A stretch of DNA of 24,704 nucleotides from a virus. Within the stretch, counting starts at the first letter, position 1. Every line of letters starts with the position of its first letter. The position numbers and the translations under genes are program-made. The DNA lies in the IMG/VR virus record IMGVR_UViG_3300017956_006293, positions 1 through 24,704 of that record; one strand, given 5' to 3'. Below, piece by piece: positions 4,876-24,598 of the stretch. Below the pieces are notes generated by a model. That model ran no database searches. It had not been told where the DNA came from and worked only from the letters and a program-made list of their open reading frames with translations.

Positions 4876-6120
4876 CTACCTACAAATCTCATCAAACATT
4901 GTTTGCAGTTGAGTGAAAACTGTATTGGGATCAGACGCAGCTGAGTGTAAATCACTTAAATTATTTACCAGCTGATCAAAAGTATTAAAGTGTTCTCTCA
5001 AAGAGAAAATATAGATCCCAAAACCACTATCTCTAATCGCATCAGCTGCATCAACCTCTGTGTTTGTTGGGTTGGCGTAGGATTGCCCAGCTTCATCAGT
5101 CATTAGAACAATAATCTTTTGAGAGCTTTCTGAGAAGTTAAATGAGATATCACCATTGCAAATACCGATCACCGCGTCGTAAGAAGGCTCCAATCCACCA
5201 GAGTTCGGCATATGAACAGTTTCTATTGTTTGTAGGTGACGCAAGAATTCATCTCTTGGGACAAGATCTGTGACTTTTAGCAAGTGTTTGTAGTTGCTGC
5301 CAGGATCACGTTCTGGCTCTCTCATTCCAATCACTACAAGCCCAAATTTAAAACCACTTGTGATGGGATCTGATAAGAGAGGTGTGATTCCGCCGATCAT
5401 TGATCTAATCTCATCGCTGAATGACCCTGACACATCCACAACAAAAACTATTTCCGCCGGCTTTTCTTCAAATCCTTCATCAATTTGTCCGTCGCAGTTA
5501 TTGTCAATTCCGTCACATCTTTCTTCTTCTGGAAGAACTTGGCCTTCACAGTGAGACATAACAGCGTCTGTGCAGTATGAGATACCAGCTCTGCAGATTC
5601 CAACTCTCATTGTGCCAGGAGGTCCATCATAGCAAACTACTGCTGTTTGATTAACAATGTGCTCATCAATTTCTCCGCTACAGTTGTTATCAATACCATC
5701 GCACACTTCTTCTGCAGGCCCAACGTGTCCCTCGCAAGATAGCACCCCTTCATTACACTCATAAACTCCGGGCTGACAAATTCCTTCGCTATAATTCACA
5801 CCCTCAACAAATCCACAAAGCTGGTTTTTCTCTGGGTAGTTGTCATCAACTATGCCATTGCAATCGTTGTCGATTCCATCACAAACTTCTTCTTCTGGTC
5901 CTTGCGCTCCAATGCATTCACCCCAGCCATTAAAAGTGCAGTGTTGCTGCCCGTATGAGCAAATACCATTTCTTACTAGGCTAGATAGATTCTCAATAAT
6001 TTGACCATTCTCATCGCAGACTCTTACTTCGCCCGGAGAGCATTCCAGTGAAACAAGCGTGTCGTCATCAGGACATCCAGCAAGTATTAACACTGATAAT
6101 CCAAGAAGGTACCTGCTCAT
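4876..6120 (-). CDS. lipoprotein with MopE-like CDGIDN repeats and a VWA domain
   Basis: 414 residues. The signal peptide ends in lipobox LAGC (Cys16). Residues 25-215 form a Cys-rich region with three copies of the motif CDGIDNDCNG/CDGIDNNCxG (starting at Cys80, Cys140 and Cys202), the putative metal-binding MopE repeat common in secreted proteins of myxobacteria. Residues 223-414 are a von Willebrand A domain with the MIDAS start DVSGS (229-233) and a later threonine/aspartate motif (LMTDEAG). Both halves suggest Ca/metal-dependent adhesion at the cell surface. It is the last gene of a three-gene minus-strand operon and overlaps the upstream gene by 4 nt (ATGA). It looks recruited from a deltaproteobacterial-type host. 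The partner is unknown. Confidence 0.85.
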   Translation of the reverse strand: MSRYLLGLSVLILAGCPDDDTLVSLECSPGEVRVCDENGQIIENLSSLVRNGICSYGQQHCTFNGWGECIGAQGPEEEVCDGIDNDCNGIVDDNYPEKNQLCGFVEGVNYSEGICQPGVYECNEGVLSCEGHVGPAEEVCDGIDNNCSGEIDEHIVNQTAVVCYDGPPGTMRVGICRAGISYCTDAVMSHCEGQVLPEEERCDGIDNNCDGQIDEGFEEKPAEIVFVVDVSGSFSDEIRSMIGGITPLLSDPITSGFKFGLVVIGMREPERDPGSNYKHLLKVTDLVPRDEFLRHLQTIETVHMPNSGGLEPSYDAVIGICNGDISFNFSESSQKIIVLMTDEAGQSYANPTNTEVDAADAIRDSGFGIYIFSLREHFNTFDQLVNNLSDLHSAASDPNTVFTQLQTMFDEICR

Positions 6121-8015: not shown

Positions 8016-8620
8016 GAAAGTACGTTTTTTTACTCGCGCTTTTGAGTTCATGTAACGCTGCGCATCAAATAGAAGATGCGGACAGTGAAGCTGTTTTTAC
8101 TGAGGAGCTTATAACCTACTCACATCCAAGCGAAGAAGATGTAGAGATACTTCACTTTCACGCTTCTTCAGTTTTGGGTCACTTGAATTCTGAGCAATTA
8201 ACAAACGTAAGCATTATTTTAGAAGTGGCTGAGCAGCAAAAATTTGATAAGCGCTTGATGTTAACTGTCGCCTTTAAGGAATCTTCTTTTTACGCAAACC
8301 TGACTTCAAATACAGGTGATTACGGATTGTTTCAAATTAATGCTAGATGGTGGTATAAGTTTTTAGGGTACGCAACAAAGAAAGATTTCGTAAAGCATAA
8401 TATGGATCCTAGAGTTAGCGCTGAAAACGCTGTTAAAGTTATAAAAGAGCTAACACGCTACAAGACGTGCAAGGGAGATGATATCTTCGCATGTTATAAC
8501 GGTGGTCCGGGTTGGCGTAAATCCAAAAACAGGGCAGTCATAGAAAGATATAAGCGATCATCTCTCAGAATTAGACGTCTCGTTACTGAGAAGTACGATG
8601 AATGGATATCTCGAAAGTGA
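8012..8620 (+). CDS. SLT-type lytic transglycosylase lipoprotein
   Basis: 202 residues, TTG start in a TTGA overlap with the previous stop. The signal peptide ends in lipobox LSSC (Cys14). The SLT (goose-lysozyme-like) domain spans about 68-170: catalytic Glu90 in AFKESSFY, then GDYGLFQINARWW (102-114) and the late CYNGGPGWR block (about 160-168). Such enzymes cleave glycan strands to 1,6-anhydro-muropeptides, opening the wall for export, entry or lysis. The lipid anchor points to local wall remodelling in the infected cell rather than a free endolysin. It is the last gene of the envelope module, and the next gene overlaps it by 23 nt. Confidence 0.88.
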   Translation: MRKYVFLLALLSSCNAAHQIEDADSEAVFTEELITYSHPSEEDVEILHFHASSVLGHLNSEQLTNVSIILEVAEQQKFDKRLMLTVAFKESSFYANLTSNTGDYGLFQINARWWYKFLGYATKKDFVKHNMDPRVSAENAVKVIKELTRYKTCKGDDIFACYNGGPGWRKSKNRAVIERYKRSSLRIRRLVTEKYDEWISRK

Positions 8621-8864
8621 TCCAAAGTTTAATATCGGTGACTTAGTTGTCATCGACAAGAAACTCTACAAGTCTCTCACATCTAAAAATTTTCCAGCGG
8701 GCGTTCCAGTTTTTGCACTTGTGATTGCTCGCAGAGCTCACGTCGACGTCCAATCTCACGTCGTACCCGCATCAGGTAATCGATTCTTTGACTATAAGAT
8801 CTTACTAAGTGGAGAAGTTTACTGGGTGTATGAAGATGAAATCAGTGAGATCGGCTTCTTGTAA
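8598..8864 (+). CDS. SH3/KOW-like small protein (GDLV family)
   Basis: 88 residues. The N-terminal FNIGDLVVIDKKL and the closing GEVYWVYEDEISEIGF fit the layout of a small SH3-like beta barrel that recurs through this window: GDLV in strand 1, a central Gly-x-Val turn, and a terminal 'W/Y...E..' strand. The ATG lies within the end of the transglycosylase gene with GAG about 7 nt before it. There are no catalytic motifs. The family is described here by pattern only; function unknown. Confidence 0.65.
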   Translation: MNGYLESDPKFNIGDLVVIDKKLYKSLTSKNFPAGVPVFALVIARRAHVDVQSHVVPASGNRFFDYKILLSGEVYWVYEDEISEIGFL

Positions 8865-8918
8865 TACAAATCTTGATTTTAGTGTATAAATAACCTGTCA
8901 CAAAATGATAGGATATGC

Positions 8919-9080
8919 ATGTCTCCTCAAACTACTAACAATCTCCGACTGCTTGGCATCGGAATTATTTTATGTTCTTTTGTTGTTCCCGGCCCTCAAA
9001 TAGATAGTCTTGCCAACATAGCAATGATCGGTCTTCTTGCTGATTGGGCTTATAGAATTATGACCGATACTAATAGATAA
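8919..9080 (+). CDS. small hydrophobic protein, two weak membrane segments
   Basis: 53 residues starting MSPQTTNNLRLLGIG. There are hydrophobic stretches at about 11-25 and 31-45, so it is probably membrane-associated. A GATAGGA (8907-8913) precedes the ATG by 5 nt. An alternative ATG at 8915 gives only a 7-codon frame. It stands alone, with short gaps on both sides. A holin- or antiholin-like role is conceivable from size and position near cell-wall genes but is not supported by any motif. Confidence 0.5.
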   Translation: MSPQTTNNLRLLGIGIILCSFVVPGPQIDSLANIAMIGLLADWAYRIMTDTNR

Positions 9081-9133
9081 ACAAATTACTAGGCGCATAT
9101 TATATAGAATGCTGTATAACGCTTAGGAGTCAA

Positions 9134-9433
9134 ATGAAAAACAAGAGCAAGTGGAAGAAATTTAAAGACGTTATTATGTTTGGTGATCAAGAGATGACCG
9201 TCACAAAGTATCGATGCTTAAACGGGTGCGGGATGTTAACTACAAAAGAGCCTGACAGGACCAAGACTTGCCCATGCTGCGATGTTAATAACAGTAGGCG
9301 TAGAGAAGCTGAAGAAGCAACCTCAGCACGAGTCAAGGGCGGACTTCCAAAACGAAAAGGTGGAGATTTCAAAGAAGTTGACACTGAAGGAGGAACTCCT
9401 TATAATCCTCCCAGGGAAATGAAGAAAATGTGA
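9134..9433 (+). CDS. zinc-ribbon-like hypothetical protein
   Basis: 99 residues. Cys28, Cys32, Cys46, Cys48 and Cys49 (YRCLNGCGM ... TCPCCD) make a likely zinc knuckle pair. The flanks are strongly charged, and the C-terminal third is Gly/Lys/Pro-rich and probably disordered. AGGAG precedes the ATG. This composition is usual for small phage nucleic-acid-binding proteins, but I recognise no family. It is followed after 7 nt by the next gene. Confidence 0.65.
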   Translation: MKNKSKWKKFKDVIMFGDQEMTVTKYRCLNGCGMLTTKEPDRTKTCPCCDVNNSRRREAEEATSARVKGGLPKRKGGDFKEVDTEGGTPYNPPREMKKM

Positions 9434-9440
9434 GGTGTAA

Positions 9441-9803
9441 ATGGGCTTCAGAGTAATTAAAGAGTCAGGCAAGGAAGACAAGGTCAAGACTAACCAACTT
9501 AAACGTCAATTACGCAAATCATGTGATAAGATCGCGAAGACAATCACGGAAGAAGTAAAAAAGTTTCAGGAGATGGCCAAGAAGGAAAACCTGGAAGAAT
9601 ACTTTTGGATGCACGCAGCACATCGAGCCATGCTCTACATCGACTCCAAGAGCGAGGATAGCTTTCTAGCTGCAGAGATCGGTGACCTGTTTGCCAAGAG
9701 CGACTTTGAAGGCATGGATAGGTACAACACGCACATCGACATCGATCGCTTAGATAAGGCGAAAGAGAAAGAATATCTTAGACAGTTAAAGAAGGATAAA
9801 TGA
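9441..9803 (+). CDS. hypothetical charged helical protein
   Basis: 120 residues, highly charged and predicted mostly helical (LKRQLRKSCDKIAKTITEEV and the following helices), with a basic C-terminus (YLRQLKKDK). No membrane segment, Cys cluster or catalytic motif. GAGG precedes the ATG. It overlaps the next gene by 4 nt (ATGA). Unrecognised. Confidence 0.65.
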   Translation: MGFRVIKESGKEDKVKTNQLKRQLRKSCDKIAKTITEEVKKFQEMAKKENLEEYFWMHAAHRAMLYIDSKSEDSFLAAEIGDLFAKSDFEGMDRYNTHIDIDRLDKAKEKEYLRQLKKDK

Positions 9804-10015
9804 AAACCAAGAAGCCTCCAGTTTCGGGTGACCTAGTAGAAGTGTTGATCTCTGATAGAAATCTTGTCACGGGTGAGCTTGAGCATACCTGGAAGTCAGG
9901 GGTTCTTCTTGAAGTTTCTACAGCTATTGAATTTAATTCTCTGCTCTGGGTTGAAGTACTTGTTGGCGGAGAAAAAATAATAACAACACCTGATAAAATC
10001 GAACTAGTTTCATGA
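9800..10015 (+). CDS. SH3/KOW-like small protein (GDLV family)
   Basis: 71 residues with SGDLVEVLI near the N-terminus, a central WKSGVLLEV strand and the closing TTPDKIELVS. This is the layout shared with the other GDLV proteins here. The start is the ATGA overlap with the previous gene. No catalytic residues visible. Probably a single small beta barrel used in protein or nucleic-acid contact (inference). Confidence 0.6.
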   Translation: MKTKKPPVSGDLVEVLISDRNLVTGELEHTWKSGVLLEVSTAIEFNSLLWVEVLVGGEKIITTPDKIELVS

Positions 10016-10026
10016 AAGGAATAGAA

Positions 10027-10254
10027 ATGGAAAATCAGTTTGAAGATGCAGTAAAAGAGTTTATGACTCGCTTGACCACAATTGAGTCCGAGATGGACAC
10101 CCTCCGAGAAGACCGCAAGGAACTAATCGATGAGTTTAAGACAAGGCTTGACACTAAGGCTTTCAAGGCAGCTCTGAGCATCTACAAGATTCGTTTGAAA
10201 AATGTTGATTCTACAAATACGATCGAGCAGATGCTTGATATATTAGAGGCGTGA
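10027..10254 (+). CDS. GapR-like (DUF2312-like) coiled-coil protein, tentative
   Basis: 75 residues from the ATG at 10027, which has AAAGGA 6 nt upstream. An ATGA-overlap start at 10012 would add five residues. The N-terminal half is a helical heptad-type segment (IESEMDTLREDRKELIDEFK) followed by a Lys/Arg-containing helix (FKAALSIYKIRLKN). The 'I..me.L.ed.kel...' pattern followed by a K-rich helix resembles GapR/DUF2312, small dimeric DNA-binding proteins that recognise overtwisted DNA. The match is by pattern only and could be any short coiled coil. Confidence 0.5.
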   Translation: MENQFEDAVKEFMTRLTTIESEMDTLREDRKELIDEFKTRLDTKAFKAALSIYKIRLKNVDSTNTIEQMLDILEA

Positions 10255-10460
10255 TGCTAAAGCCTGGTGATCTGGCGTGGATCCAAGACGAGGAACTGCC
10301 GAAGGATTACGGGTTTATAGGTGTGGTGCTGGAGATGCCTAGGTGGCGAGAGGATGACTATGAGCACATGTGCTATAAGCTTCTCTCAGATGGCGAGATT
10401 TACTATGTTGAACCGGAGTTAGTAACCCCTTATGAAGAAGTACGACAAGCTAGTTCGTGA
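10254..10460 (+). CDS. SH3/KOW-like small protein (GDLA variant)
   Basis: 68 residues (MLKPGDLAWIQDE ... YGFIGVVLEM ... GEIYYVEPELVTPY), a GDLV-type SH3-like barrel with Gly-x-Val in the second strand. ATG 10254 overlaps the previous TGA by one base. A GTG at 10251 would add one residue. AGAGG at 10245-10249 is the likely ribosome site. Its 3' end overlaps the MazG-like gene by 29 nt. Confidence 0.6.
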   Translation: MLKPGDLAWIQDEELPKDYGFIGVVLEMPRWREDDYEHMCYKLLSDGEIYYVEPELVTPYEEVRQASS

Positions 10461-10743
10461 TAAGATTCCAACGATCATCAGAGAGTCTGGTAGCTCTTGC
10501 AAGACTAGGACTATCAAGTCTGACGAAATTGAGACTTATTATCGCAGAAAAATTCAGGAAGAGCTAGACGAGCTTTTTGAGAATCCTTGCGCAGAAGAAA
10601 TGGCTGACTTGATGGAGGTTGTTGACTCCCTGCGGAATGTGCTTGACCTAAGGATCGAGAAAGTGATTGACGTCAAGTGTGCCAAGAGAAATGAGCGAGG
10701 CACCTTCAAGAACGGCACTATCTTAATTCACGTAGAAGAGTAA
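10432..10743 (+). CDS. MazG-like nucleoside triphosphate pyrophosphohydrolase
   Basis: 103 residues. The opening KKYDKLVRDKIPTII is the signature of a small phosphoribosyl-ATP pyrophosphohydrolase/MazG-like family found in bacteria and phages. The acidic metal site fits Glu/Asp residues in IQEELDELFE (about 41-50) and EEMADLMEVVDSL (about 55-67), the EExx..ExxD pattern of all-alpha NTP pyrophosphatases. These enzymes hydrolyse NTP to NMP and PPi, cleaning damaged nucleotides or adjusting the pool. The C-terminal 30 residues (RNERGTFKNGTILIHVEE) form the beta hairpin usual in this subgroup. It overlaps the preceding gene by 29 nt. Substrate not predictable. Confidence 0.85.
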   Translation: MKKYDKLVRDKIPTIIRESGSSCKTRTIKSDEIETYYRRKIQEELDELFENPCAEEMADLMEVVDSLRNVLDLRIEKVIDVKCAKRNERGTFKNGTILIHVEE

Positions 10744-10791
10744 TATCTCTTCCTGGGCGCATAAATATATTGTAGGCCTAGGAGCTTTATA

Positions 10792-12222
10792 ATGAGATTG
10801 CATCTCGACGGTGATCTACCTAAAATCGAAGAAAAGAAAGATCTGGTCGAAATATTCGTCAACCACTGTTGTGAAAAACTGGGTATTGACAACGGCTATG
10901 ATGTGCACATCGTAGATGATAGAGATGCGCACGACATAAGAACAACAGCGTATTATGATCCGAATAATGAGATCATAAAAGTCTACGGTAAAAATAGAGC
11001 CCTTCCCGATGTGCTCAGATCCATCGCTCATGAGCTCGTTCATGCCAAGCAGCACGTCAAGGGTGAGTTTGATGAGCATCCGATGCAGGATGTTGGCGGT
11101 TACTTGGAAGATGATGCAAATGCTCGTGCAGGCTCTCTGCTTAAAGGCTTCTCTCTAAACAGGGAGAAAGACGATGTGTATGAAGTCCGTCGCTTATTTG
11201 AGAATTTGATCATCGAGTCTGTGATGCTTGAAGTCGCAGACGGTCAAAAATCTTTAAGCGAAATCAAAGAGCTTACACGTCAGGCAGTTAATGAAGCACT
11301 CACTGCAGGTGCTATTAGAGCCATCGAAAGTCTTAAGCTTGCCAATTTCGGTAAAGTATCTCAGGCAGATATAGAAAAAGGCGTTGCAGTTCACATGCCA
11401 GTAATTGGCGCTCTTCAGCAAGGTTTAAAGGACATGGGATTTAACCCAGGAAGAGTTGATGGCATCTTTGATGCGTCAACTGAAGCTGCGCTGAAAGAAT
11501 TCCAGAAAAAGAAGAACGTACATCAGACAGGCACCACGACCCAAGAAACTTGGGAAGCATTTTTAAAGGCGAATGAGCAGGGTGAAATTAAATCATCTGT
11601 CGCTGCTAAGCCTCTGAAGAGCCCTAAAAAGAAATCAGGTGTCGCAAGAGGGACTGTAAATCAAGATGCTGCCAAGCGTGCCCAAGATCTCTCAAAAGAG
11701 ACAGGTATTCCGGCTGAAGTTATTTACGCGATTGAGATGAGAGAGTCCTTCGGTAATCCAAGCGCTTTCGCTTACAATGCGCACATCTCTCGAAATCCTA
11801 AGTACAGTGCGATATCTGGGCACACGCTTTCATCTTCTGCTCGCCGCAAGCTTCCTTCTGGCAGGTCTTACTATGGCAGTGATGCGAAGAAGCAGTTTAA
11901 CAGAGCTTACAAAGTTGATCCAGTCGCGGCGATCGCAGGAGGCGCGTGGGGTTTGTACCAGGTGCTTGGAGCTTTCTCACTCTTGGATTACGACGGCGAC
12001 CCAAAGAAATTCTTGGCTGTTTGGAATTCAAATCCAGAAGAACACTCTAAAACAGCGTTTAAGCGCTGGGTCGCTAGAAATCCTGACGCAGTCGAAGAAA
12101 TGAAATCTGGCAACACCGCGAAGTGGGTTAAGAGATACTACGGCGCTGCAAGTTCAGATTACATTAATCACGTCACAAAGAACATGGAAAGATACAACAG
12201 GGCGTATCGAGCAACATCATGA
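10792..12222 (+). CDS. three-domain wall enzyme: zinc metallopeptidase, PG-binding domain, N-acetylmuramidase
   Basis: 476 residues. Domain 1 (about 15-125) is a small metallopeptidase with HELVH (80-84) and a likely third ligand in GYLEDDANARAG (103-114). A linker (125-195) follows. Domain 2 (about 202-260) is a PG_binding_1 repeat (LQQGLKDMGFNPGRVDGIFD, then TEAALKEFQKKKNV and TWEAF). After a Lys/Pro linker, domain 3 (about 292-474) resembles the DUF3380 N-acetylmuramidase of phage endolysins, with AIEMRESFGNPSAF (313-326; Glu315 or Glu318 catalytic) and GGAWGLYQVLG (383-393). There is no signal peptide, so release would need a holin, or the protein is carried in the virion. A peptidase plus glycosidase would cut both peptide stems (or another protein) and glycan. 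TAGGAGC precedes the ATG. The next gene overlaps by ATGA. Confidence 0.82.
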   Translation: MRLHLDGDLPKIEEKKDLVEIFVNHCCEKLGIDNGYDVHIVDDRDAHDIRTTAYYDPNNEIIKVYGKNRALPDVLRSIAHELVHAKQHVKGEFDEHPMQDVGGYLEDDANARAGSLLKGFSLNREKDDVYEVRRLFENLIIESVMLEVADGQKSLSEIKELTRQAVNEALTAGAIRAIESLKLANFGKVSQADIEKGVAVHMPVIGALQQGLKDMGFNPGRVDGIFDASTEAALKEFQKKKNVHQTGTTTQETWEAFLKANEQGEIKSSVAAKPLKSPKKKSGVARGTVNQDAAKRAQDLSKETGIPAEVIYAIEMRESFGNPSAFAYNAHISRNPKYSAISGHTLSSSARRKLPSGRSYYGSDAKKQFNRAYKVDPVAAIAGGAWGLYQVLGAFSLLDYDGDPKKFLAVWNSNPEEHSKTAFKRWVARNPDAVEEMKSGNTAKWVKRYYGAASSDYINHVTKNMERYNRAYRATS

Positions 12223-21526: not shown

Positions 21527-21869
21527 TCTTGTTAGACCCAAAGCGTCTGTGTTCGATGACTGGAATAGACCTCAGGGCTTTCGCGCAACTACACAAGAAG
21601 AACGCGACCAGTGGCGTCAGCAGCTAAGAAGTGATATCGCCGCCAGTCTCACTGAGTGGCGCGACTCGGCAGGAGAACCCAAGATTGCCCCGCGGTCTTG
21701 CTGGATTGATCTTGAGGTGGGGGACACATACCTAGTGCTCAAAGCGAGAGCACACGCTCGTGTGGGCTGGGGCAATGGTGTTCCAAAGTGCGTCTATCTT
21801 GCCTGCCCGAAAACCGGTGAGAAATTCTACATGCGCCGCAATGAGGTCGAGGTGGTAAGTGAGCGCTGA
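21513..21869 (+). CDS. SH3/KOW-like protein with helical insertion
   Basis: 118 residues. [13 protein letters not shown] opens the barrel; a helical charged insert follows ([20 protein letters not shown]); then [33 protein letters not shown] and NEVEVVSER close it. It is the largest GDLV member here. The terminal Glu-Val codons (GAGGT at 21849-21853) act as the Shine-Dalgarno of the GIY-YIG gene, GTG 5 nt later. Confidence 0.6.
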
Positions 21870-22113
21870 GTGGCTCATGTATGTGCTGGAGTGCGCGGAC
21901 GGCAGCTACTACACAGGCATCACTACTGATATCACCCGACGCCTTCACGAGCACAACCACACGACTAAAGGTGCTAAATACACACGAGGCCGCCGCCCAG
22001 TAGGCCTGATCTACTGTGAGCGTCATACCGACCGCTCAAGGGCTTCAAAAGCTGAGGCTGCTTTCAAGAAGCTAACGCGCAAGCAAAAGGAAGCTTACGT
22101 TGCATGGAATTAA
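21859..22113 (+). CDS. GIY-YIG domain protein (YhbQ/UPF0213-like)
   Basis: 84 residues, GTG start. The nuclease core is clear: [19 protein letters not shown] (7-25; the GIY and YIG equivalents are MYV and YTG), Arg27 in ITRRLHEHN and the later Glu in [17 protein letters not shown]. YhbQ-type proteins are stand-alone GIY-YIG domains with weak or unknown nuclease activity; a small phage homing or repair nuclease is also possible. It overlaps the SH3-like genes on both sides (11 and 14 nt), so it sits as cargo in the array. Confidence 0.88.
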
Positions 22114-22824: not shown

Positions 22825-23017
22825 TGAAGTAACTGTGATTGGAAGGCCAGAGCTTGGAACTGGAAAGATAGTCAGGTTTTACGCTAATCAAAGCACAATC
22901 CTTGTTGATTTTGAGAACAGGGAAAATCTGACTTACTGCGACTACGAAAGCGTGGAGCACAGTGACAGTCAGTTAGGTGGTCTGGTTGCCCAACACTTTT
23001 TGGGAGAAAGAGAATGA
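22811..23017 (+). CDS. SH3/KOW-like small protein with a repeat-derived tail
   Basis: 68 residues: MKIGDEVTVIGRPELGTGKI, VRFYANQSTILVDFENRE, YESVEHSD. The barrel is complete at about residue 49. The last 17 residues (SQLGGLVAQHFLGERE) are encoded by the 52-bp repeat that appears again, non-coding, at 24336. In that second copy the same frame meets TAA after LVA, so this tail is probably not functional. The stop overlaps the next ATG (ATGA). Confidence 0.62.
   Translation: MKIGDEVTVIGRPELGTGKIVRFYANQSTILVDFENRENLTYCDYESVEHSDSQLGGLVAQHFLGERE
22965..23016 (+). repeat. direct repeat R1, copy 1
   Basis: About 52 bases from ACAGTCAGTTAGG to the ATG of the gene at 23014, nearly identical to 24336-24388: two substitutions and one inserted base counted by eye. 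This copy encodes the end of the SH3-like protein and carries the GGGAGAAAG ribosome site of the next gene. The two copies enclose four genes and a non-coding RNA candidate (about 1.37 kb). Confidence 0.9.
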
Positions 23018-23928: not shown

Positions 23929-24131
23929 AACCGGGCGATCTCGCCAGTCGAAAGAACTCACCCCGGAGATATGTCGGTTTGGTTGTGCGATTGTTTGAGC
24001 TGGATGCGCCTCACTTCGGCGGCCTGTTACCTGTCGCAGAGCTAATGACAAGGGACGGCTTGCGAGTGTGGAAGGTCAGAAAGCTAAGGGTGATGAATGA
24101 AAGTCACGAAGGACAAAAGGTAACCACTTAG
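23925..24131 (+). CDS. SH3/KOW-like small protein (GDLA variant)
   Basis: 68 residues from GTG 23925 (GTGA overlap); the frame is open upstream within the previous gene. VKPGDLASRKNSPRRYVGLV, VRLFELDAP, LLPVAELMTRDGLRVWKVRKLRVMN. The central strand and final 'W.V..LRV' fit the family, though the N-terminal strand is degenerate. Last recognisable GDLV gene in the window. It ends just before the non-coding leader region. Confidence 0.58.
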   Translation: MKPGDLASRKNSPRRYVGLVVRLFELDAPHFGGLLPVAELMTRDGLRVWKVRKLRVMNESHEGQKVTT

Positions 24132-24168
24132 GGTAGCCTTAAGCGCTATACATTCTTTAGGGTTGAGT

Positions 24169-24174
24169 TATAAT
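24169..24174 (+). promoter_or_regulatory. -10-like TATAAT at the head of the non-coding leader
   Basis: A perfect TATAAT. The predicted transcription start, about 7 bases downstream, falls at G24181, at the first strand of the cloverleaf-like structure. No good -35 is visible (CTATAC at 17-base spacing, similar to TTATAC before the TATAAT at 3641). Confidence 0.45.
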
Positions 24175-24179
24175 CTAAT

Positions 24180-24295
24180 AGGAGTGAGGCGGTATTACGC
24201 AGGGTTCTACTGAGATGATATACGACCCGGACCGAAGAATAAGAGTCTAACAAAGGAATACTCGGTCAATTGCAGGTGAAAACCCTGCCACTCCT
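24180..24295 (+). ncRNA. candidate structured RNA with a tRNA-like cloverleaf
   Basis: Non-coding region with nested helices that can be drawn by hand. The closing stem is AGGAGTG/CACTCCT (24180-24186 with 24289-24295, 7 bp). Arm 1 is GGGT/ACCC (24202-24205 with 24225-24228). Arm 2 is GACCG/CGGTC (24230-24234 with 24263-24267), plus inner AGT/ACT. Arm 3 is GCAGG-TGAAAAC-CCTGC (24272-24288), a 5-bp stem with a 7-base loop, joined to the closing stem without a linker as in the T arm of a tRNA. A small GCG/CGC hairpin (24189-24200) lies where a D arm would be. The loop lacks TTCGA and there is no anticodon arm of normal size, so it is not an ordinary tRNA. Family unknown; helices are short and need covariation. 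Confidence 0.4.
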
Positions 24296-24309
24296 TCAAA
24301 TGAAGTTAC

Positions 24310-24365
24310 CCCGCTTGTAGCGGGTGGGACTGGAAACAGTCAGTTAGGTGGTCTGGTTGCCTAAC
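24310..24365 (+). other. three consecutive hairpins in the leader of the 24386 gene
   Basis: CCCGC-TTGTA-GCGGG (24310-24324), GACTG-GAAA-CAGTC with a GNRA tetraloop (24328-24341), and GTTAGG-11 bases-CCTAAC (24343-24365), followed by CACC and TTTTT and then GGGAGAAAG. The last hairpin plus T-run could be an intrinsic terminator or a translation switch in front of the gene at 24386. In repeat R1 copy 1 the third stem contains an A-C mismatch that copy 2 lacks. Confidence 0.45.
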
Positions 24366-24388
24366 ACCTTTTTGGGAGAAAGAAAATG
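24336..24388 (+). repeat. direct repeat R1, copy 2
   Basis: Near-identical to 22965-23016 but non-coding here. It supplies the GGGAGAAAG ribosome site and ATG context of the 24386 gene. Relative to copy 1 it has TAA instead of CAA after the SQLGGLVA frame, one extra C before the T-run, and A for G before the ATG. Confidence 0.9.
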
Positions 24389-24598
24389 AATAATGTAAAA
24401 ATCTTATATCAAGAGTGCAAAGTGTGTGGAAAATCATTCAGACCTCCGACTCGTAAAGAACTGGAAAAATCAATCTTGTTCAAAGCCGCCGAGGCTCTCG
24501 GAATTGATATGGGAAATGGATACACAGGCGGGAATAGCTTGTTGGCGATGTTGAACTGTTCAGTTGAGTGTGCGAGAAAACGGGAAAACAAAGAATGA
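24386..24598 (+). CDS. small zinc-finger-like protein
   Basis: 70 residues with CKVCGKSF near the N-terminus (Cys11 and Cys14) and CSVEC near the C-terminus (Cys58 and Cys62), an arrangement that could bind one zinc. The middle is a helix and Gly-rich turn (GNGYTGGNSLL). Translation starts from the R1-derived GGGAGAAAG. A small nucleic-acid- or protein-binding role is likely, but no family is recognised. Overlaps the next gene by ATGA. Confidence 0.65.
   Translation: MNNVKILYQECKVCGKSFRPPTRKELEKSILFKAAEALGIDMGNGYTGGNSLLAMLNCSVECARKRENKE

Follow-up and report, generated by a model that had tools for sequence, protein, structure and literature searches.

Small stable RNAs with tRNA-like ends have been known from bacteriophage T4 for decades and are annotated as such in its genome (NC_000866), and to our knowledge no function has been agreed for them. 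Two of them, rnaC (species 1) and rnaD (species 2), are tandem small RNAs of 139 and 119 nt encoded within a tRNA cluster, and a canonical T arm forms the 3′ end of rnaC, immediately preceded by a hairpin. Class II tRNAs (RF00005) combine a 7-bp acceptor stem, a D arm, a 5-bp anticodon stem, a long variable arm and a T arm, the tmRNA has a tRNA-like end with a domain inserted at the position of the anticodon arm, and in freshwater-2 (RF02980) a hairpin CCCGC...GCGGG is followed by a U run, a ribosome site and an ATG. The locus analysed here, which shares features with each of these, lies on a 24.7-kb virus contig (IMGVR_UViG_3300017956_006293) of small, overlapping genes, which was examined over its whole length of 24,704 nt (hereafter the window).

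Downstream of the stop codon at 24131 and before the ATG at 24386, the plus strand contains no ORF of at least 40 aa, in agreement with a preliminary description that had called these 254 bases free of any plausible gene, and protein coding at the locus was rejected as no ORF was conserved. The stretch carries two RNA domains, A and B, preceded by a promoter and followed by a small gene (Table 1). A TATAAT had been taken to place a transcript start at G24181; the box is present at 24169-24174, with a weak −35 element, TATACA, at 24147-24152, and the position of this promoter predicts a start near A24180/G24181. No Rfam family reached its cut-off in the whole window, matches near 24180-24373 being dismissed on account of their chance-level scores, and the 70-aa product of the downstream gene matched nothing in Pfam or PHROGs. 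The best rows for the window's DNA ligase in the public phage collection are about 30% identical, and none reaches 60%; the phages carrying domains A and B are uncultivated. Elsewhere in the window, a small protein with a GIY-YIG domain is encoded at 21859-22113 and a protein with repeated EEVCDGIDNDCNG motifs on the minus strand at 4876-6120. The partial second copy upstream of the locus has one broken stem pair; relatives of the gene that follows it have a full domain B elsewhere.

Table 1. Features of the A-B locus and of the partial second copy in the window.
Feature	Position	Strand	Basis or remark
Partial second copy (hairpin 3, U tract and ribosome site) before another gene	22965-23011	+	96% identical
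Sigma70-type promoter, TATACA-16-TATAAT	24147-24174	+	Motif scan and homologue promoters
Domain A, tRNA-like cloverleaf RNA	24180-24295	+	Alignment A1, covariation, covariance model R1
Acceptor-type stem, 5′ strand AGGAGTG	24180-24186	+	Pairs with CACTCCT, 24289-24295, 7 bp
D-like arm, 3 bp, 6-nt loop	24189-24200	+	Invariant in 19 copies
Anticodon-type arm, 5-bp stem, 17-nt loop CUACUGAGAYRAUAWAC (24207-24223)	24202-24228	+	
Long variable-type arm, GACCGA...TCGGTC	24230-24267	+	7 bp in relatives
T-type arm, GCAGG-TGAAAAC-CCTGC, 5 bp, 7-nt loop	24272-24288	+	Abuts acceptor stem
Domain B, three hairpins and U tract	24298-24373	+	Alignment A2, model R2
Hairpin 1 of B	24310-24324	+	Site of 42-nt insert in the long form of relatives
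Hairpin 2 of B, GACTG-GAAA-CAGTC	24328-24341	+	GAAA tetraloop
Hairpin 3 of B and U tract	24343-24373	+	Terminator-like; hairpin 24343-24365, U tract 24369-24373
Ribosome site GGGAG and 70-aa gene with CxxC and CxxxC pairs	24374-24598	+	

Folding of the window sequence alone was only mildly better than that of shuffled sequences (z-score −1.0 for the whole and −1.9 for domain A), and the case for a structured RNA therefore rests on its relatives. Nineteen distinct copies of domain A aligned almost without gaps (alignment A1), and when the cloverleaf was imposed on them 98% of the pair cells were kept, compared with 34-43% when the pairing partners were slid by 1-3 columns; cells changed on both sides numbered 42 as against 14 ± 3 in shuffles, so that the fold proposed for the window lies well beyond chance in the homologues. 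The search for compensatory changes suggested in the preliminary description yielded nine pairs of domain A with changes on both sides, among them two in the acceptor-type stem, four of the seven in the variable-type arm and two in the T-type arm, and these three helices hold nearly all of the covariation signal. The 7-bp closing stem and the abutting 5-bp arm with its 7-base loop, both proposed from the window alone, are thereby borne out. The D-like arm and the anticodon-type stem (kept in 19/19 copies and nearly invariant) hardly vary, so that covariation speaks neither for nor against either, and since searches with core patterns pick copies having that core, the invariance of the core in A1 is partly a search artefact; the search patterns included neither the T and variable arms nor the 3′ strand of the acceptor. 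RNAalifold recovered the same helices unguided. Covariation among the aligned sequences thus establishes the cloverleaf of domain A for three of its five helices. A pseudoknot between positions 24213-24216 of the 17-nt loop and 24245-24248 of the variable arm is a further possibility, the candidate pairing being available in 19/19 copies with a compensatory change in a single row.

Domain A has all of the class II elements listed above, including a D-like arm and an anticodon-type stem, and its helices are spaced as in a tRNA: 2 nt separate the 7-bp acceptor stem from the D arm and 1 nt the D arm from the 5-bp stem, after which come the variable arm and the 5-bp/7-nt T arm, with no gap to the acceptor. 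It differs from a tRNA in the 17-nt loop that replaces the 7-nt anticodon loop in all 19 copies, in a variable arm of ∼38 nt, in a 6-nt D loop and in a T loop that is non-canonical in most copies: U54 and A58 are kept throughout, whereas U55-C56 occur only in L031 and L039, which have the canonical T arm GCAGG-TTCAAAT-CCTGC. No conserved CCA is encoded after the acceptor of A; several phage tRNAs in these records encode CCA. The covariance-model search against known RNA families, likewise suggested beforehand, returned none at its cut-off. RF00005 scored 23.1 bits in L031 and L039, below its gathering cut-off of 29 bits and with the D arm of the tRNA model aligned at the D-like arm in L031, and did not match the window copy of A.

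Model R1, built from domain A only, was run over 30 records; it recovered A in 25 and gave five further, weak matches, all of which proved to be tRNAs (three by ARAGORN, two above the RF00005 cut-off). A match in the crAss-like phage cr10_1 (L107) was likewise identified by Rfam as a tRNA and was not counted as a relative. The tRNA-like cloverleaf of the preliminary description is upheld by these off-family matches, by the covariation and by the RF00005 matches in two homologues. On the reverse strand of L014, from ∼8294 to 11240, a tRNA gene appears to be interrupted in its anticodon loop, with the 5′ half directly upstream of A and the matching 3′ half ∼2.9 kb further. In L072 (G007:16249-16325) a tRNA-like sequence with CCA was missed by ARAGORN and scored 31.5 bits with RF00005; its D arm looks missing.

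Domain A recalls the tmRNA in the acceptor and T arm of its end and in the enlarged element at the anticodon-arm position, but no tmRNA was detected in the window by ARAGORN or Rfam and no tag reading frame was present. A separate, true phage-borne tmRNA, with the tag ANDNVENFEDFAIAA, was observed in L011 at 1815-2117. The tandem arrangement of A and B resembles that of T4 rnaC and rnaD, which unlike A and B sit among tRNA genes; models R1 and R2 run over T4 positions 69500-73500 gave no match to either RNA, and neither of the two belongs to an Rfam family above cut-off. The T4 RNAs are the nearest analogue found, in a likeness of layout and not of demonstrated kinship. Similarly, B resembles freshwater-2 in the order of its elements, and the score of 15.7 bits against a gathering cut-off of 49.9 bits gives no evidence of kinship. 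No Rfam family fits the A-B RNA, and a search of the open-access literature returned no description of it. Among the four readings offered in the preliminary description (tRNA mimic, degraded tRNA, regulatory leader and undescribed phage RNA class), the last is the best.

The three hairpins previously described as ending at the ribosome site, one of them with a GAAA tetraloop, were located at 24310-24365; the terminator-like U tract behind them and the recurrence of the RNA elsewhere go beyond the earlier reading. Alignment of 23 copies of domain B revealed a short form of ∼75 nt and a long form of ∼118 nt, which has an insert in the loop of hairpin 1. In the long form (for example L005 5825-5942) the 42-nt insert contains GGAGAGGGATAAACTCC and GATTGCTAATC, recalling tRNA D and anticodon arms. 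Covariation in B is thin, with three pairs changed on both sides. In L039 the sequence of hairpin 2 is swapped for GAGCATTATTGCTC with the stem kept, and in L105 the stem of hairpin 3 changes from GTTAGG/CCTAAC to GGCGAG/CTCGCC with the G/U-rich loop kept. A U tract follows hairpin 3 in every copy of B reaching that far except L105, where hairpin 3 runs directly into the ribosome site, and apart from this exception the end of B has the layout of an intrinsic terminator, a hairpin closely followed by a U tract, although as a terminator stem hairpin 3 is weak (−6.9 kcal/mol). A candidate leader peptide in B, ATGAAGTTACCCCGNTTGTAG (MKLPRL*), was rejected since its stop and codons were not kept in L011, L024, L029 and L039.

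Domain A was found on ∼25 IMG/VR contigs. Pattern searches of this collection, with overlapping results, retrieved 13 stretches with hairpin 3, 25 with the core of A and 24 with hairpins 1-2 of B, and a shorter core of A, TTACGCAGGGTTCTACTG, returned the same 25 contigs and none further. Nothing comparable to the two domains was found in the phage and plasmid collections searched. A match in Fusobacterium phage JD-Fnp6 was confined to 23 unpaired nt of the variable arm, lacked a surrounding helix and scored 14.3 bits, and it appears fortuitous; a match to the core of A in a bacterial genome had no homology beyond 19 bases and was attributed to chance, and L003 shared only the 19-base query. 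Each record had one or two copies. On many contigs A often lies near the end, which would fit an assembly interrupted at repeats, and the copy number per genome may be underestimated.

The fused A-B form is the commonest arrangement, but A also occurs alone (L005 at 3212, L006 at 13027), as does B (for example L004, L010, L011, L022 and L042). Of 24 unit starts that differ in their upstream sequence, 18 lie 4-9 nt behind the end of a sigma70-type promoter matching at least 9 of 12 positions, compared with 0.8% of randomly chosen positions in this DNA; one B unit and five A units are without a promoter at the expected distance. Where B stands alone at a promoter it begins at the same AAATG as when it follows a few bases after A. 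A run of 5-6 T follows A in two of the three A-alone copies (L005 and L006), the third being cut by the contig end, and in none of the 16 fused copies, so that the last domain of a unit, be it A or B, is the one followed by the U tract.

The genes that follow these units belong to many different families. At five of seven loci, the 330 bases preceding a close relative (83-99% identical) of the window's 70-aa gene contain no such RNA, and part of the loci of three further downstream gene families likewise lack it. In L029, L014 and L022 a separate promoter (10-12 of 12 positions) stands between the RNA and the next gene. As many unrelated genes follow it and close relatives of the window's own gene mostly do without it, the A/B RNA is, judged from these arrangements, a movable unit and not the dedicated leader of the zinc-finger gene. 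The preliminary reading as a regulatory leader of that gene therefore finds no support, RNA and gene being apart in most relatives, and the variety of downstream genes, the RNA-free relatives and the separate promoters together favour an RNA gene over a dedicated leader.

A more general action in cis is a possible though less probable alternative. Domains A and B would then be 5′ leaders exerting a generic control, like that of an attenuator or a polymerase modifier, over read-through of the U tract, stability or translation. Such leaders would account for units that mostly begin at a promoter +1, for a next gene that in most loci is read from the same strand, begins no more than ∼25 nt after the U tract and lacks a separate promoter, and for L105, in which domain B is joined straight to the ribosome site. 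They fit less well with one or two copies per record instead of one per operon, with the lack of a tie to any gene family and with the three loci having a promoter after the RNA, and they would not require the tRNA outline of A.

It appears improbable that A serves as a tRNA-like processing signal, beside which host RNase P, RNase Z or another tRNA-processing enzyme would cut and free B or the message. The T arm and the 7-bp acceptor stem are the main features read by RNase P, and in A the one abuts the other; the few bases separating B from A and the constant AAATG start of B would also agree with a cut at this point. The promoter, however, puts the start at the acceptor stem, so that any 5′ leader to be removed would be very short or absent; A is also found alone, followed by a U tract, and its T loop is without U55-C56 in most copies. 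That A is instead a tRNA gene in decay that travels with a terminator, the degraded tRNA which the preliminary description had considered, is very improbable, for in spite of its tRNA-like spacing, the canonical T arm of two copies and an acceptor resembling that of a phage tRNA-Pro in L014 (CGGAGTG/CACTCCG), a decaying gene would lose both its paired stems and its loop, whereas in A several stems are kept by paired changes and the 17-nt loop is nearly invariant in copies before unrelated genes. These covarying stems and the nearly invariant loop indicate that the A-B RNA is under selection, even if it was once derived from a tRNA.

We favour, with about even confidence, a phage small-RNA locus in which A would act in trans as a tRNA mimic and B would form the 3′ end, with some leak into the next gene. 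From the position of the sigma70-type promoter, the transcript would start at the first base of the acceptor-like stem or one or two bases from it; domain A folds into the tRNA-like cloverleaf, in which the anticodon loop is enlarged and the variable-type arm long, and domain B into its three hairpins, the RNA presumably ending at the U tract with a length of ∼195 nt. Read-through past the U tract would supply the next gene. In trans, A may act as a stable RNA whose partner is a tRNA-binding molecule or, via the 17-nt loop, a target RNA. This trans action is proposed on the strength of the tRNA outline and the invariant single-stranded loops, combined with the lack of a conserved CCA and of an anticodon-sized loop: an outline and invariant loop without an anticodon suggest a tRNA-handling partner or pairing of the loop with a target, although this step is a guess from the anatomy of domain A. 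Against a small-RNA locus stand L105 with its missing U tract, the leader-like spacing to the next gene, the weakness of hairpin 3 and the six units without a promoter.

A more specific form of the small-RNA reading, which we consider rather doubtful, would make the A-B RNA a new class of phage small RNA in which a tRNA body bears a conserved 17-nt loop, serving as sensor or bait, instead of the anticodon. Its target in trans would be a host factor that binds tRNAs, for instance a defence nuclease directed against them, and promoter, RNA and terminator would travel from phage to phage as one cassette, with T4 rnaC convergent or very distant.

Large uncultivated bacterial viruses of one group have a movable, previously undescribed structured-RNA gene, the product of which probably acts as RNA and not as message. 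After the T4 RNAs, the A-B family would be a second, apparently unrelated case of a phage small RNA with a tRNA-like end, and one with enough copies for covariation to single out its conserved parts and invariant loops. The 17-nt loop gives it a named, testable part, and the promoter-RNA unit would make a compact cassette.
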